DNA of 64,000 nucleotides from Acidobacteriota bacterium. GTDB taxonomy: Bacteria > Acidobacteriota > Terriglobia > Bryobacterales > UBA6623. The notes below the pieces were generated by a model that saw nothing but the letters and a program-made list of their open reading frames with translations, searched no databases and was not told where the DNA came from. The position numbers and the translations under genes were made by a program. The DNA is taken from the NCBI GenBank assembly GCA_016125275.1, contig WGMB01000007.1, forward strand, positions 248,001 to 312,000, given 5' to 3'. This document shows, piece after piece, positions 31,027 to 37,296 of the stretch (within the stretch, counting starts at the first letter, position 1; each line of letters opens with the position of its first letter).

Positions 31027-31458
31027 TCAGCGGCGGCTCCTGAGCTCTTCGTAGGTGGCTCCCGCGTCCGGCTCCAGCGCGACCGGCAGGTCGAGCCGCG
31101 CCCAGCCCTCATAGCTGAGCACGCCCCCCGGCCCCATCTCACCGTCCAAACCTCCCCGCATGTCCTTGACGTGCACATACCCGGCGGACAAGAGGATGCG
31201 GGCCGCCTTGGTCGACCGGCCTCCCCGCAAGCAGCCGGTGATGATCTTCGAGTCCTTCGGAAAGTTCGCCTCGACCACGGCGAGGAACTCGGGGTTCGGG
31301 CTCATTCCCATCGAATCGCGCACCATGATCGGGACGTTGCGCGCTCCCGGCACATGGCCGGCGGCGAACTCGTCCTCGGCGCGCACGTCCAGGTAGACGT
31401 AGCCCTCGCCGGACTCCAGCAGCTCCTTCACTTCGTGCGGTGAGATGCGATCGAACAT
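31027..31458 (-). CDS. Rhodanese-like protein
   Basis: A 143-residue single rhodanese domain: ISPHEVKELLESGEGYVYLDVRAEDEFAAGHVPGARNVPI, then IITGCLRGGRSTKAARIL, with the catalytic Cys76 in CLRGGRS. It should transfer sulfane sulfur or act on similar thiol chemistry in the cytoplasm. It is divergent from the sialidase/sulfatase fusion gene. Confidence 0.9.
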   Translation of the reverse strand: MFDRISPHEVKELLESGEGYVYLDVRAEDEFAAGHVPGARNVPIMVRDSMGMSPNPEFLAVVEANFPKDSKIITGCLRGGRSTKAARILLSAGYVHVKDMRGGLDGEMGPGGVLSYEGWARLDLPVALEPDAGATYEELRSRR

Positions 31459-31521
31459 TTCGGTATCAAACTGTCTGGGCCGCGGGTCGCGTCCGCGGAA
31501 GAATCGAGCCCCGCCGCAAGG

Positions 31522-31527
31522 TATGCT
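31522..31527 (+). promoter_or_regulatory. -10-like hexamer of the sialidase-sulfatase gene
   Basis: TATGCT lies 8 bases before ATG 31536. Confidence 0.45.
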
Positions 31528-31535
31528 TTGGGGCG

Positions 31536-34061
31536 ATGCGAATGCTCCTGCTCCTGGCGCTGACGGCCACGGCCGCCGCGGCGCCGTCGGACAATCCGTT
31601 CGGTCTGCCGATCGTCGACCTCTCCGGCGAGACCCACCGACAATCTATCGTCGATCGCGAGCCGAAACAGTACCTCGGCCACCCCTCCACCCTGCTGCTG
31701 CCCGATGGCCGCACCATCCTGGTGGCGTACCCGAAGGGCCATGGCAAGGGGCCGATCCTGCTCAAGAAGAGCTATGACGGCGGTCGGACCTGGGGTGAGC
31801 GTTTGCCTACGCCAGCCAACTGGGCGACCTCGGAGGAGACGCCGACACTCTACCGGCTGATCGATCCCAACGGCAAGGCCCGCATTCTGCTGTTCTCCGG
31901 CAAGGCCGGCGGCATCCGCGTGGCCTACTCCGAGGACGACGGGGAAAGCTGGTCGCCGCTCGAAGACATCCGGACGCCGGGCGCCGCGTTCGGAGGCATT
32001 GTGGCGATGAGCTCGGTGGTCGCTCTGCGCGACGGCTCCTATATGGCTCTGTTCCACGACGACGGGCGGTGGCTGCGGAGCCCTCCGGAGCACCCCGAAG
32101 GGCGGCATTTCCGGGTCTACAAGACGGTTTCGGACGATGGCGGGCTCACCTGGAGCCAGCCCGAGACGATCGCTGAGCACGCCCAGGCTCATCTGTGCGA
32201 ACCCGGGGCCCTCCGCTCGCCGGACGGCAAGACCATCGCCGTGCTGCTGCGCGAGAACAGCCGGACGCTACGCTCCTTCGTGATCTTCTCCCGGGACGAG
32301 GGCGACACCTGGACCGAGCCGCGCGAGCTGCCCGCCACCCTCACCGGCGATCGCCATACGGCTCACTACGCCCCCGACGGACGACTCTTCATCACGTTTC
32401 GCGACAACGGCGTCCCCGAAAGCCCCACCCACGGCGACTGGGTCGGCTGGGTAGGGAGCTGGGAAGACCTCGTCGAAGGCCTGCCGGGCCAGTACAGGGT
32501 GCGCCTGATGGACAACCAAGAGGGCGCCGACACGGCTTACCCCGGACTCGAGCTGCTGCCGGACGGGACCTTCGTGACGACTACCTACGGGCACTGGGCC
32601 GCCGGAGAGCCGCCGTACGTCGTCAGCGTTCGCTTCCGGATGCAGGAGCTGGACGCCCGCGCTGCGTATCCGGACAAGACGGGCTTGACCAGCTTGGTGG
32701 TCGGGACGGACGAGGAGTTCCCTCCGCCGCCGCCGGGTAAGCCGAACATCCTGTTCATCTCGTTCGACGACCTCAACGACTGGGCCTTGGCCCCGGACTC
32801 TCCGCTGGCATTACCGCACTTGGAAGGGCTGGCCCGGCAGGGCGCGTTCTTCGAGCGGGCCTACGCCGCCTCGCCGGCCTGCAATCCGTCGCGCGCGGCG
32901 CTGTTGATCGGCAAGCGTCCGACCACGACGGGCGTCTACGGCAACAGCTCGGACTGGAAGGCCGCGTTGCCCGACGCCGTGACCCTGCCCCGGGCGTTTC
33001 TGGAGGCCGGCTATCGCGTGGAGGGGGCGGGGAAGGTCTTCCACCATCACAGCAACAGCGCCTATCACGACGACCGCGCCTTCCACCGCTTCTGGAAGAT
33101 GCAGCTCGATCCGATCCCCGCGCGTAAGCTCAATGGGATTTATGACATCCGTAGTGAGAACTTCGACTGGGGGCCTTGGCCGCTCGACGTCTCCGAGACC
33201 CCCGACGCCCGCAGCGCCGAATTCGGGGTGGAGTTCTTGCAGCGGCGGCACGATCGGCCGTTCTTTCTGGCGATCGGGCTCTTCCGGCCGCACATGCCGT
33301 TCCACGCGCCCCCTTCGTCCTTCGCCCAGTACCCGGAGAAGGACGTGGTTCTGCCCTTGCGCCCGCCGAACGACCTCGACGACATTCCCAGCGGCGGCAA
33401 GGCCTTGCTCGAGCAGACGCGGCGCTTCTGGGACGCCGTGCTCCACGGCGAGGCCGACCGGCCGGGAACTTGGCGCGACTCCGTGCGGGCCTACCAGGCG
33501 TCGGCCAGTTTCGCTGACCAACAGCTCGGCCGGGTCCTGACTGCTTTGGCGGCCTCCCCCTATGCGAAGTCTACGATTGTCGTAGTGTGGTCCGACCACG
33601 GCTACCACCTGGGCGAGAAGGAGCATTGGGAGAAGTTCGCCCTGTGGGAGAAGACGACCCGGGTGCCGCTGGTGATCCTCGCCCCGGGGCTCACTCAACC
33701 CGGGGCCCACGTGGAGGCTCCGGTCAGCCTGCTCGATCTCTACCCGACCCTGCTGGAGCTGGCGGGGCTGCCGAGCCGCTCCGACCTCGAGGGGCGCAGT
33801 CTGGCTCCCCTGCTGCGCGATCCCCAGGCGGCCTGGGACGAGCCGGCCCTGATGAGCTGGGGCCCGGGCAACCACGCTGTGCGAGACCGTCGCTGGCGCT
33901 ACATCCGCTATGCGGACGGAACCGAGGAGCTGTACGATCACGCCTCGGACCCCCACGAGTGGACCAACCTGGCGGGCTCGCGGCCGGACGTGGCGGCCCG
34001 ACTGCGCCGCTTCCTTCCGACGGCCGAGGCGCCGGCGGTCCCCGACTACCGCCGAGACTGA
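31536..34061 (+). CDS. Secreted fusion of sialidase-like beta-propeller and sulfatase
   Basis: An 841-residue exported protein (signal MRMLLLLALTATAAAA). Residues about 20-395 form a sialidase-like propeller with repeated Asp-box motifs (SYDGGRTWGE, SEDDGESWSP, SDDGGLTWSQ, SRDEGDTWTE). A short linker (EEFPPPPPGKP) leads at about residue 402 into a sulfatase: NILFISFDDLNDW (metal-binding Asp pair) and CNPSR, with Cys449 in the CxPSR formylglycine motif, followed by VVVWSDHGYHLGEKEHWEKF and a C-terminal part like iduronate-2-sulfatase. The two halves usually occur as separate genes. The protein probably acts on sulfated, sugar-capped glycans; activation would need a formylglycine-generating enzyme, not seen here. 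Confidence 0.88.
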   Translation: MRMLLLLALTATAAAAPSDNPFGLPIVDLSGETHRQSIVDREPKQYLGHPSTLLLPDGRTILVAYPKGHGKGPILLKKSYDGGRTWGERLPTPANWATSEETPTLYRLIDPNGKARILLFSGKAGGIRVAYSEDDGESWSPLEDIRTPGAAFGGIVAMSSVVALRDGSYMALFHDDGRWLRSPPEHPEGRHFRVYKTVSDDGGLTWSQPETIAEHAQAHLCEPGALRSPDGKTIAVLLRENSRTLRSFVIFSRDEGDTWTEPRELPATLTGDRHTAHYAPDGRLFITFRDNGVPESPTHGDWVGWVGSWEDLVEGLPGQYRVRLMDNQEGADTAYPGLELLPDGTFVTTTYGHWAAGEPPYVVSVRFRMQELDARAAYPDKTGLTSLVVGTDEEFPPPPPGKPNILFISFDDLNDWALAPDSPLALPHLEGLARQGAFFERAYAASPACNPSRAALLIGKRPTTTGVYGNSSDWKAALPDAVTLPRAFLEAGYRVEGAGKVFHHHSNSAYHDDRAFHRFWKMQLDPIPARKLNGIYDIRSENFDWGPWPLDVSETPDARSAEFGVEFLQRRHDRPFFLAIGLFRPHMPFHAPPSSFAQYPEKDVVLPLRPPNDLDDIPSGGKALLEQTRRFWDAVLHGEADRPGTWRDSVRAYQASASFADQQLGRVLTALAASPYAKSTIVVVWSDHGYHLGEKEHWEKFALWEKTTRVPLVILAPGLTQPGAHVEAPVSLLDLYPTLLELAGLPSRSDLEGRSLAPLLRDPQAAWDEPALMSWGPGNHAVRDRRWRYIRYADGTEELYDHASDPHEWTNLAGSRPDVAARLRRFLPTAEAPAVPDYRRD

Positions 34062-34126: not shown

Positions 34127-35251
34127 TTGCCTCGTCCCGTTCCCGTCCTCCTGCTGGTCCGCGAGCTGAACCTCGGCGGCTGCGAGCGTGATCTGACGCG
34201 CTTGGCGCTGGGCCTCGACCGCTCGCGCTTTACGCCGCACGTCGCCTCGCCGCACCCGGAGGGCTTGCGCGCCGACGAGCTTCGCTCCGCGGGCGTCCCG
34301 CTGTTCCGCCTGCCCCTGGAGAGCTTCCTGTCGGCGGACGTTTGGCGGGCCGGCCGAGCCCTTTTGCGCTACTGCCGCCAGCACGGGATTCGGATCGTCC
34401 ACGCCTGGGACATCCCCATGACGCTGTTTGCCGCGCCGGCCGGCCGCTGTGGCCGCGACCTGAAGGTCGTGACCGCGCAGTTGAGCTACCGGGGCTTCTA
34501 CCGCGGCTGGGAGCAGAAGCTGCTCTGGCTTACCGACCGACTTTCCGATCGAGTGGCGGTGAACTGCCAGACCGTGATCGACGACTCCGTTGAGCGCTTT
34601 CGGATGCCTCGGGCGAAGGCGGCGCTGATCTACAACGGGGTCGACACGGCGGCCTTCCGGCCCGGCCCCCGCAATCGCTCTCTTTTGCCGGACAGTTTTC
34701 GACAAGCGTCGTTGGTCATCGGGACCGTCTGCGCGCTGCGCCGCGAAAAGAGCCTCGAAACGATCCTCGAAGCCTTTGCCGCCGCCGGGCCGGCCCAGCG
34801 CGACTGGCGGCTGGTGATCGTCGGCAGCGGCGCCGAGCTCGGCAAGCTGCAGGCGCTCAGCCGGTCGCTCGGAGTGGAAGCCCTGTGCCACTTCGAGCCC
34901 CAGACCGCCGAGGTTCCGGCCTGGCTGAAGGCCCTGGACGTATTCGTCCTCTCATCCACATCCGAGAGCTTCCCCAACGGCTTGCTCGAAGCCATGGCCT
35001 GCGGCTGCGCGGTCGTCGGCACGCGGATCGGCGGCGTCCCCGAAATGATCGAGGAGGGGCGGTCCGGCTTGCTGTTCCCGGTCGGCGACGCCTCCAGGCT
35101 CCGGGAGCATCTGGTGCGGCTGGCCGACCCTGCTCTGCGAGCCGACCTGGCGTCCGCTGGGGCTCAGCGAGCCGTCGAGCGCTTCTCCGCCGAGCGCTTC
35201 TGCCAAGCCTACGAAGATCTTTACGACGAGCTGTTGGCCGACCGGAAGTGA
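34127..35251 (+). CDS. GT4 family glycosyltransferase
   Basis: A protein of about 374 residues with a GT-B fold. N-terminal acceptor half: VPVLLLVRELNLGGCERDLTRLALGL; linker LIYNGVDTAAFRPG; donor half with GTVCALRREKSLETILEAFA, LVIVGSGAELGKLQ and the E-x7-E motif in SSTSESFPNGLLEAMACGCAVVGTRIGGVPEMIEEG. It should transfer a nucleotide-activated sugar to a lipid or glycan. The start is uncertain: TTG 34127 is likely, CTG 34100 is possible, and TAGATT at 34090-34095 is a candidate -10. Its last 31 bases overlap the end of thiL on the other strand. Confidence 0.85.
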   Translation: MPRPVPVLLLVRELNLGGCERDLTRLALGLDRSRFTPHVASPHPEGLRADELRSAGVPLFRLPLESFLSADVWRAGRALLRYCRQHGIRIVHAWDIPMTLFAAPAGRCGRDLKVVTAQLSYRGFYRGWEQKLLWLTDRLSDRVAVNCQTVIDDSVERFRMPRAKAALIYNGVDTAAFRPGPRNRSLLPDSFRQASLVIGTVCALRREKSLETILEAFAAAGPAQRDWRLVIVGSGAELGKLQALSRSLGVEALCHFEPQTAEVPAWLKALDVFVLSSTSESFPNGLLEAMACGCAVVGTRIGGVPEMIEEGRSGLLFPVGDASRLREHLVRLADPALRADLASAGAQRAVERFSAERFCQAYEDLYDELLADRK

Positions 35252-36201
35252 TCGAAGCCGGCCTCGGCCAACGGGGTCTCCCGGCCCTGCTCGCGCAAGA
35301 CCACGCCCTCGCCGGCCCTGAGCTCGCCGATCGGACGAATGTCGGAGCCGGCCAGCCTCTCGGGCAGTGCCAGCCCCGCGGGCGCCGTGAACAGCAGCTC
35401 GTACTCCTCCCCGCCGTGCAGGGCTTGCTGCCGAGAGGCCCCGGGGAAGAGTGGGACGTCGCCGGCGTCTACGACAGCCTGCAATCCGGAGGCCTTGGCC
35501 AAACGACCAAGGTCGGAGGACAGGCCGTCGCTGAGGTCGATCGCCGCCGAAACTCCCGCTTCCCGCAGCGCCGAACCCAAGGCCAGCAGCGGCGTCGGGC
35601 GCAGGTGGCGGTCGACCGCCGGATCCGTCTCGTCGGCGACGCCTCCGGCCAGCAAACGTTGGAGCCCGAGAGCCGATCCGCCGAGCGCTCCCGAGACGTA
35701 GATCCTGTCGCCGATTCGCCCTCCGGCCCGCTGCAACGCGCGGCCCCGAGGGACCGTTCCGCAGGCCGTGATGTGGCCCGTAAACCGTTCCGCAGCAGAC
35801 AGATCCCCCCCGGCGAGAACCAGCTCTCCGCCAGGGTCTAATGCCCGGATCGAATCAAACATTTCTGACAGAAACTGTTCCAGCCAGTCCCCCCGCGCCC
35901 AGTCCGGCAGGCCCAGCGACAGGAGCATCCAAGCCGGCGCGGCGCCCATGGCGGCGAGATCGCTGAGTCCGCGGGCCAGCAACTTGCGCCCGAGCGCGCC
36001 GGCCGGATGGGAATCTCGCAGAAAATGTTTATTTTCTATGACTTGGTCGGTCGTGACGACCATCTCGAACGCTTCAGAGGGCGGGCGAATAATGGCGCAA
36101 TCGTCGCCGATGCCCAGCCGAACCGAGCTCTCCGGCCGTTGCGGCGCATGACGCTGAATCCACTGGATTATCGACTCTTCCGTTGTTTTCGCCCCCGCCA
36201 T
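35221..36201 (-). CDS. thiL: Thiamine-monophosphate kinase
   Basis: A 326-residue enzyme that phosphorylates thiamine phosphate to thiamine diphosphate with ATP. Family landmarks: TEESIIQWIQRHAP at the N-terminus, VRLGIGDDCAIIRPP, MVVTTDQVIENKHFLRD, LARGLSDLAAMGAAPAWMLLSLGLP, LAGGDLSAAERFTGHITACGTVP, and SAAIDLSDGLSSDLGRLA. The C-terminus shares 31 base pairs with the converging GT4 gene. No other thiamine gene is in the window. Confidence 0.95.
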   Translation of the reverse strand: MAGAKTTEESIIQWIQRHAPQRPESSVRLGIGDDCAIIRPPSEAFEMVVTTDQVIENKHFLRDSHPAGALGRKLLARGLSDLAAMGAAPAWMLLSLGLPDWARGDWLEQFLSEMFDSIRALDPGGELVLAGGDLSAAERFTGHITACGTVPRGRALQRAGGRIGDRIYVSGALGGSALGLQRLLAGGVADETDPAVDRHLRPTPLLALGSALREAGVSAAIDLSDGLSSDLGRLAKASGLQAVVDAGDVPLFPGASRQQALHGGEEYELLFTAPAGLALPERLAGSDIRPIGELRAGEGVVLREQGRETPLAEAGFDHFRSANSSS

Positions 36202-36241
36202 TTTATGCCCGCTTTTCCCGCCGAAACGCCAACAACGGCGA

Positions 36242-36271
36242 TTGACATCCCGCGCCCCGAGTTGGTATCTT
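36242..36271 (+). promoter_or_regulatory. Strong sigma70-like promoter of the M23 peptidase gene
   Basis: A perfect TTGACA (36242-36247) and TATCTT (36266-36271) are spaced by 18 bases. This is the best -35/-10 pair in the window. An inverted repeat CGTCA-GTC-TGACG (36275-36287) overlaps the expected start of transcription and could be an operator. Confidence 0.75.
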
Positions 36272-36298
36272 CTACGTCAGTCTGACGCAGAAGAAGAG

Positions 36299-36417
36299 AA
36301 ACCGTCCGCAGAGACGGTTCCACTCAACAAACCTTACCGCGAAGCATCCCTTCGCGCATGCAGCCTTCCTGATTGGGCAGCTCGCCCCAGGAAGAACAGA
36401 GGACGATTCGGTCAGGA
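36299..36417 (+). promoter_or_regulatory. Structured 5' leader of the M23 peptidase gene, three hairpins
   Basis: Three consecutive hairpins can be drawn. The first is AACCGTC (36300-36306) with GACGGTT (36313-36319). The second is CGCGAAG (36338-36344) with CTTCGCG (36350-36356). The third is CTTCCTG (36365-36371) with CAGGAAG (36388-36394), carrying an inner GGGC/GCCC stem. An AGAGGAC sequence follows about 15 bases before the ATG. The leader is about 140 bases long while many genes here have none. I do not recognise a known riboswitch class. Confidence 0.55.
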
Positions 36418-37296
36418 ATGAAGCGTAACTACTTTGTAGTGGTTTTGGCTCACCCGTCCTACGGGCGAATCAAACGTATCCACATCCCACACTACGCAGC
36501 CCACCTGGCAGTCTGCTTCGCCATCTTCGCGGGGATCGTGACTGTCGGATTCACTTCCAGCTATGCCCGCATGCTCGGCAAGATCTCGGAGTTCAATGAC
36601 TTACGCGCCGAGAACGCAGCCCTGCAAAAGCGTCTGGAGACGCTGCAGGAGAAGGCTGCGGACGCCGACGTGCAATTGGCTTCGCTCGGGTCGCTGGCCT
36701 CGGAAGTTTCGATCGCCTTCGGCATCCGGCGCAGCTTTACCGGCGGCTCTTCCGACGATTTGAACTTCGCGTCGGTTCGCAACCCCACCAGCCAGTACGA
36801 CATGCTCAAAGCCGTACGACTGCCGTCGGAGAGCGACGGCTCGATGTTGTCGTACTTGTCGAACACCACGCCGTCGATCTGGCCGATCAAGGGGCGCATC
36901 AGCAGCTCGTTCGGCCGCCGTATCGACCCGTTCCTGGGGCGGGGCGCCTTCCACTCCGGCCTCGACTTGAGCGCCGGTCGCGGCACTCCGGTGATCGCTA
37001 CGGCTGACGGGACGGTCCGGGAAGCCGGGTGGAGCGGCGGTTACGGCAAGGCCGTCGTGATTAGCCACGGCAGCAACGGCATGTCGACGCTCTACGGCCA
37101 CCTCACCGAGATTTTCGCCACGCCCGGGCAGGTTGTCCGCCGCGGCGAGGTCATCGGGCGCTCGGGCAGCACCGGTCGTTCGACGTCAGCCCATCTGCAC
37201 TACGAAGTGCGCTACCACAACACGCCGGTCAATCCGTACAAGTACCTGCAGCGGTCGCAATCCAGCGGCGACGACGGGATGGTCCTGACCGACTAG
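36418..37296 (+). CDS. M23 family peptidoglycan endopeptidase, membrane anchored
   Basis: A 292-residue protein: short cytoplasmic tail, one membrane helix (LAVCFAIFAGIVTVGFTSSY), a coiled coil (EFNDLRAENAALQKRLETLQEKAADADVQL), then the LytM/M23 domain from about 155. Zinc ligands are His179 and Asp183 in FHSGLDLSAG and His261 in SAHLHYEVRY, with catalytic His in LYGHL. All ligands are present, so it should be active, cutting peptidoglycan cross-links in the periplasm or activating division amidases. It is preceded by a strong promoter and a structured leader. Confidence 0.92.
   Translation: MKRNYFVVVLAHPSYGRIKRIHIPHYAAHLAVCFAIFAGIVTVGFTSSYARMLGKISEFNDLRAENAALQKRLETLQEKAADADVQLASLGSLASEVSIAFGIRRSFTGGSSDDLNFASVRNPTSQYDMLKAVRLPSESDGSMLSYLSNTTPSIWPIKGRISSSFGRRIDPFLGRGAFHSGLDLSAGRGTPVIATADGTVREAGWSGGYGKAVVISHGSNGMSTLYGHLTEIFATPGQVVRRGEVIGRSGSTGRSTSAHLHYEVRYHNTPVNPYKYLQRSQSSGDDGMVLTD

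Follow-up and report, generated by a model that had tools for sequence, protein, structure and literature searches.

A structured leader behind a strong promoter at an M23 peptidase gene of the Acidobacteriota

At a rough probability of 0.45, the leader of the M23 peptidase gene described here is a protective, insulating structured 5' UTR behind a strong promoter; judging from its sequence, it resembles an ordinary structured leader more than any known RNA switch. Namely, the murein-peptidase gene would be driven by a strong, housekeeping-type sigma-70 promoter of the extended -10 kind, and the hairpins of its structured leader, about 140 nt long, which lie between the 5' end and the ribosome site, would slow the decay of the mRNA and limit its misfolding with the coding region. 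Such effects of the leader on mRNA stability and translation are something that we infer. If only the presence of some structure matters, one would expect the hairpins to turn over fast between genera, while promoter and leader persist.

The promoter, the leader and the gene

The window, that is, the whole stretch of 64,000 nt that was analysed, holds the following features at the locus.

35221 to 36201, minus strand: thiL, thiamine-phosphate kinase, the divergent neighbour (TIGR01379, 240.1 bits against a cut-off of 184.15)
36242 to 36271, plus strand: sigma-70 promoter, with -35 TTGACA (36242-36247), a spacer of 18, the TG of an extended -10 (36263-36264) and -10 TATCTT (36266-36271); a like promoter lies in 114 of 120 homologue regions
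36270 to 36292, no strand assigned: imperfect inverted repeat spanning the predicted transcription start; possibly an operator, or chance
36277 to 36417, plus strand: 5' leader of about 140 nt, its start inferred from the promoter and uncertain by a few nt
36300 to 36319, plus strand: hairpin H1, 7 bp, perfect, loop CGCAGA; the closed loop is identical in the closest relative (L007), where three pairs of the stem differ on both sides
36338 to 36356, plus strand: hairpin H2, 7 bp, perfect, loop CAUCC; after its own H1, L007 has a hairpin of different sequence
36365 to 36394, plus strand: hairpin H3, 7+4 bp around an internal loop; the 5' arm includes UUCCUGA (36366-36372)
36412 to 36417, plus strand: SD-like stretch UCAGGA, as read from the sequence, immediately 5' of the ATG
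36418 to 37296, plus strand: M23 (LytM-type) peptidase gene, 292 aa, with the Pfam M23 domain at residues 178-273

The initial annotation had named TTGACA-18-TATCTT as the best promoter of the window, and it does come out on top. Namely, scanning both strands of the 64 kb for sites with at least 4 of 6 matches in the -35, at least 9 of 12 in all and a spacer of 16-18 gave eight sites, among which the M23 promoter ranks first with 10 of 12 plus the TG, the remaining seven having 9 and no TG. The extended -10 was absent from that annotation and was found in the scan. Of the inverted repeat, which had been placed at the start of transcription, the presence holds (9 of 10 arm pairs), but its grade is not rare, the window yielding 50 such entries, with overlapping ones counted separately. 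Since it straddles the expected start, its left arm would be mostly untranscribed. As a conserved operator it was rejected, because no counterpart was seen by eye in L007. In genus g25 (L025, L028), an inverted repeat, ACCTGTGTC ... GACACAGGT, overlaps the -35 of the M23 promoter and might, by eye, be an operator.

The downstream gene is an M23 peptidase, as had been proposed: PF01551 (Peptidase_M23) scores 114 bits against a gathering score of 28.7, while all 15 NCBIfam models listed stay below their cut-offs, and an N-terminal membrane segment is visible by eye. Between the predicted start and the ATG at 36418 lie about 140 nt of leader, in line with the length given before. Two upstream starts, the ATG at 36358 (a four-codon frame by eye) and the in-frame TTG at 36373, were rejected; the starts of relatives agree with the ATG at 36418. 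Elsewhere in the window, positions 31440-34061 (plus strand) form a single 873-aa frame in which a BNR_2 match precedes a nearly complete sulfatase domain, possibly a fusion protein.

The three hairpins of the initial annotation were recovered, H1 and H2 as perfect 7-bp stems and H3 as a stem of 7+4 bp with an internal loop. Two perfect stems of at least 7 bp within 141 nt occur in 0.2% of 3193 window tiles of that length, which overlap one another and include those over the leader itself, and in 0.04% of 5000 shuffles. The folding energy of the leader is only moderately low, with a z of -2.06; a value of -2.09 is reached by 7% of 453 tiles. The minimum-energy fold closes UCUGAC with GUCAGG, and UUCCUGA in the 5' arm of H3 is a seven-base perfect complement of the SD and start (36412-36418), a complementarity that is within chance in this leader (p about 0.08).

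Conservation across the order and covariation within lineages

Homologues of the M23 peptidase match at E<=1e-20 in 240 of the 257 genomes of the order, and we compared 120 upstream regions from 42 genera, namely 16 from the window's own family, 24 loci from the homologue search and 80 from further down its score list; G050 was passed over in this choice, and the closest homologues are over-represented. Under the rule TTGAC[ATG]-N16-18-TAnnnT within 260 nt upstream, a promoter is present in 114 of the 120 regions and in 41 of the 42 genera, as against 1 of 120 on the reverse strand of the same regions; for exact TTGACA the counts on the two strands are 88 and 0, and for the extended -10 form 83 and 0. 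A separate scan under a different rule finds TTGACA in 87 of the 120 regions and in 8 of 2400 shuffles. Six regions have no promoter by the TTGAC[ATG] rule (L011, L029, L079, L093, L101 and L118, the last being cut by a contig end). When the 114 promoters are aligned on the -10, the T and G of the extended -10 have frequencies of 0.71 and 0.83, spacers are 17 or 18, and the distance from -10 to start codon has a median of 99 nt (range 33 to 180). The flanking genes vary among the loci read by eye; a conserved operon was considered and rejected, since the next genes vary among 22 loci (by eye; some translated). Read from these comparisons, the leader belongs to the M23 gene.

The nearest relative, L007, is of a different genus, its protein being 63% identical, and its leader forms a hairpin whose closed loop, CCGCAGAG (loop CGCAGA), is that of the window's own M23 leader (L002), on a rewritten stem. 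In particular, three pairs of H1 are changed on both sides, two are kept, and two outer pairs are lost in L007. When L007 is shuffled, 7 of 20000 shuffles share any closed loop with the real L002, and when both are shuffled, 20 of 20000 do so (stems of at least 5, loops of 4-8). The pair count is a weak control with two sequences, 54 of 500 pair shuffles being equally high. In 18 family genomes, a model of the H1 hairpin has no matches but the two loci it was built from (E<=10 after the first pass of the search); the window's genus and g2 are represented by one genome each.

Covariation in homologous leaders, which the initial annotation had suggested as a check, is seen in H1 and in three further groups, while six g6 leaders and two g34 leaders have no double-changed pairs at all. 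In g28, a three-helix structure pairs 95.8% of cells in 9 of 17 leaders (alignment A4; the remaining 8 are of another type), and both partners are replaced in four pairs, every one of them in the third helix; 3 of 500 shuffles give as many, while the number of pair types is equalled by 175 of 500. In g15, 91.2% of cells pair in 8 of 10 leaders (A3, with L062 and L108 left out), and there are three double-changed pairs, a count reached by 41 of 500 shuffles and likewise by one of the slid controls (+3). Finally, a motif of 12 leaders from four genera, g56, g70, g71 and g78 (A2), pairs 84.2% of cells, a share that none of 500 shuffles reaches; seven of its cells are double-changed, which 2 of 500 shuffles equal, and these lie in four pairs, a number attained by 68 of 500 shuffles, while slid controls have three at most. 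All leaders with the UCUCCGGC start but one are in A2 (12 of 13), the exception, L098, having only this start and no GGAGA; A2 also holds 9 of the 16 promoter-bearing leaders of g70 and g71. All these shuffle controls (H1, A2, A3, A4) ignore relatedness. On the sense strand, G-U cells stand against A-C cells as 24 to 1 in g15, 11 to 2 in g28, 8 to 7 in the four-genus motif and 0 to 0 in H1, where it should be noted that sense-strand folds supplied the structures, and such folds favour G-U. Groups that align poorly or have two sequences, L002 and L007 excepted, were not used as evidence, and neither were eight short g28 leaders, with 4 double-changed pairs but 17 unpaired cells. Signs of selection on leader hairpins thus come from H1 (two genera), g28, g15 and the four-genus motif, other groups being weak or negative, and the hairpins look selected within lineages.

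Two of these leader types have a recognizable order of elements. The four-genus motif (L065:101-169 on the minus strand, L058, L087, L114, L102, L113, L071, L107, L038, L040, L068 and L095) runs from UCUCCGGC through a variable stem, GCCGA (varied in L068 and L095) and GGAGA to the start codon, and its UCUCC could pair with the SD (GGAGA). In the eight short g28 M23 leaders (A5: L026:1436-1503, L027, L033, L035, L036, L037, L051 and L053), CAUG and UCGAGCAUG are unchanged, and beneath a variable hairpin the region around the start codon could base-pair with CAUG(C).

Across the order, leaders fold better than shuffles on average (mean z -0.78, with 29% at p<0.1, in 113 leaders). By position, in 110 leaders, pairing exceeds that of shuffles at nucleotides 15-25 from the 5' end and falls short of it over the 5 nt just ahead of the start codon; the opening 5 nt of the coding sequence, counting the start codon, pair more with the real leaders than with shuffled ones (t 3.8). 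Nucleotides 1 to 15 show no excess of pairing over shuffles, so that a terminal stem-loop of the ompA type is not general, and we rejected a 5'-terminal hairpin as an order-wide feature. Occlusion of the SD gave no signal either by accessibility, which is not below that of shuffles (mean z +0.13 in 113 leaders, +0.47 in L002), or by the longest complement, which is not enriched order-wide (4.4% of the 113 leaders at p<0.05).

Known RNA families and alternative readings

The initial annotation had held that the leader fits no known motif and had named the Rfam models as a test; in agreement with it, no Rfam family matches the leader (36230-36480) even at E<=10. At gathering score, no family matches in the window or in 15 related loci, while a permissive search (E<=1) of 20 further loci returned five microRNA families, each with its match on L114 and short of gathering score; for the four-genus motif, 11 of its 12 leaders have no relevant match. 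Between 36242 and 36418 there is no plus-strand terminator-like site, as a transcription attenuator would need. Among the papers listed by literature searches, none dealt with the M23 leader, which is not proof of its absence from print.

A shared sequence core was sought in 113 leaders, which represent 41 genera. No k-mer of 6 to 8 nt occurs in more genera than shuffles give, while 10-mers of one motif, the four-genus motif, reach four genera, the shuffle maximum being 3. Among the 100 sources searched, which are not all loci, a model of this motif matches its 12 sources and, weakly, L098 (E 0.036), and a model of the g28 leader matches its nine sources, with weak minus-strand echoes in eight of them; neither model matches the window. 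A degenerate pattern for the four-genus motif proved too loose, matching in at least 197 of 257 genomes, where the matches that were read looked like coding sequence. In other words, neither sequence k-mers nor the two leader-type models give the conserved core across relatives that marks a riboswitch. The interpretation as an RNA sensor of a known kind was not upheld: there is no Rfam match, no cross-genus core besides the four-genus motif, and no systematic occlusion of the SD, and other strong promoters of the genome have long leaders behind them too. If structure rather than sequence is kept, a cross-genus core beyond the four-genus motif is not expected, and since leader and structure persist while the sequence turns over, a protective 5' UTR fits better than an aptamer.

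Would a reading with less, or with more, selection on the RNA serve better? It is quite improbable that the hairpins arose by chance in a GC-rich spacer, with selection on the promoter only. That said, a folding z of about -2 is within reach of 7% of window tiles, and the leaders do not align across genera, their k-mer sharing equalling that of shuffles with the exception of the four-genus motif; it is the rarity of two perfect 7-bp hairpins, in tiles and shuffles alike, and the covariation in H1, g28, g15 and the four-genus motif that speak against chance. At least as improbable is that H1 is no leader element but a minus-strand intrinsic terminator, shielding thiL from antisense read-through. 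H1 followed by its T-rich tail, 36321-36298 on the minus strand, does score as terminator-like, and a T-rich minus-strand tail is seen by eye in L007 too, but a 12-kb region holds 6 such sites where shuffles have 8.3, a terminator does not need the conserved loop, and on the sense strand G-U lies far above A-C in two other genera, although for structures taken from sense-strand folds. A translational switch or thermometer, in which the start is hidden by pairing of the SD UCAGGA with either UUCCUGA of the H3 5' arm or the segment UCUGAC nearer the 5' end, is unlikely, though less so. The perfect seven-base complement, the closing of UCUGAC with GUCAGG in the minimum-energy fold and the UCUCC/GGAGA complement kept in 12 leaders all suit it, and so does the order-wide pairing of the start codon and the bases next to it. 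What is more, this pairing argues against the start region being simply left open, so that it leaves us with less confidence in the protective 5' UTR and more in occlusion. Against the switch stand the chance level of the SD complement, both in L002 and order-wide, and an SD that is no less accessible than in shuffles.

The nearest rival to the protective 5' UTR is a lineage-specific cis-regulatory RNA, in which the CGCAGA loop of H1, or other hairpins elsewhere, would bind a protein or small RNA that sets translation or decay; we regard it as possible, if tentative. The best evidence for such a binding element is the CGCAGA loop itself, identical in two genera, where few shuffles share any closed loop, on a stem that was rewritten, with three pairs changed on both sides; the model of the hairpin matches at just the two source loci; the identical loop is more conservation than mere structure requires, and to that extent it counts against the protective 5' UTR. 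The different motif common to 12 leaders of four genera points the same way. On the other hand, the CGCAGA hairpin is known from two sequences only, its pair changes are equalled by roughly a tenth of pair shuffles, no element is common to the whole order, and long structured leaders occur at other strong-promoter genes too. A bolder form of the idea, which we find doubtful, is that the CGCAGA-loop leader and its counterparts are undescribed cis-regulatory RNAs, that the whole order controls one murein peptidase post-transcriptionally, and that each lineage rewrote the RNA behind an unchanged promoter, perhaps tracking a co-evolving RNA-binding protein or small RNA.

Likeness to other leaders

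The other strong promoters of the same genome offer a direct comparison. The full extended consensus occurs at seven sites in the 7.55-Mb genome (the reversed pattern at 1), and 4 of the 6 other such promoters precede TonB-receptor-like outer-membrane genes (L159, L160, L162 and L165). In each of the four proteins, CarboxypepD_reg and outer-membrane barrel domains score above cut-off, with a Plug domain in three, and the leaders, 81-329 nt long, have folding z values from -1.7 to -2.2 (counted in L160 to the ATG at 145, where another in-frame start, a GTG, stands at 64). A looser consensus gives 53 sites (reversed pattern 7), behind which lie, by eye, groES, rpsL, atpD, Hsp20 and more TonB-type receptors. 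We folded the leaders of 21 of these 53 matches, picked where a likely start was visible: the M23 leader has a z of -2.0 in a range from +2.5 to -5.7, and no unusual structure is seen in L168 and L169 (z -0.39 and -0.81), the leaders of two genes that look receptor-like by eye. Since other strong promoters of the genome also have long, similarly folded leaders, the M23 leader is no exception there. The four TonB-receptor-like leaders share with it the full-consensus extended -10 promoter, the length and a similar folding z, but differ from it in that the H1 model has no match in them, nor any further match elsewhere in the window's genome.

Among described systems, the protective 5' UTR suggested here would work most like that of ompA in E. 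coli, whose mRNA is stabilised by elements in its 5' UTR (PMC2777011). There it is the mRNA of an envelope protein, here the gene of an envelope enzyme with a structured leader; the M23 leaders differ in having no general 5'-terminal hairpin. A c-di-AMP (ydaO-type) riboswitch, reported for C. glutamicum in the leader of a cell-wall-related peptidase gene (PMC9960051), is likewise a leader RNA before a cell-wall peptidase gene, but the M23 leader has no match to the ydaO-yuaA family of Rfam. Nor does it have an Rfam match to Acido-1 (RF01686) or Acido-Lenti-1 (RF01687), structured RNA candidates of Acidobacteria that are marked in their report as not cis-regulatory (PMC2864571).

Strong promoters with long leaders may thus be a habit of envelope genes in this group. 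What is more, a unit of promoter, leader and gene that is kept in 41 of 42 genera, while the hairpins of its RNA are rewritten, would be a useful test case for the role of structured leaders that have no visible shared aptamer.
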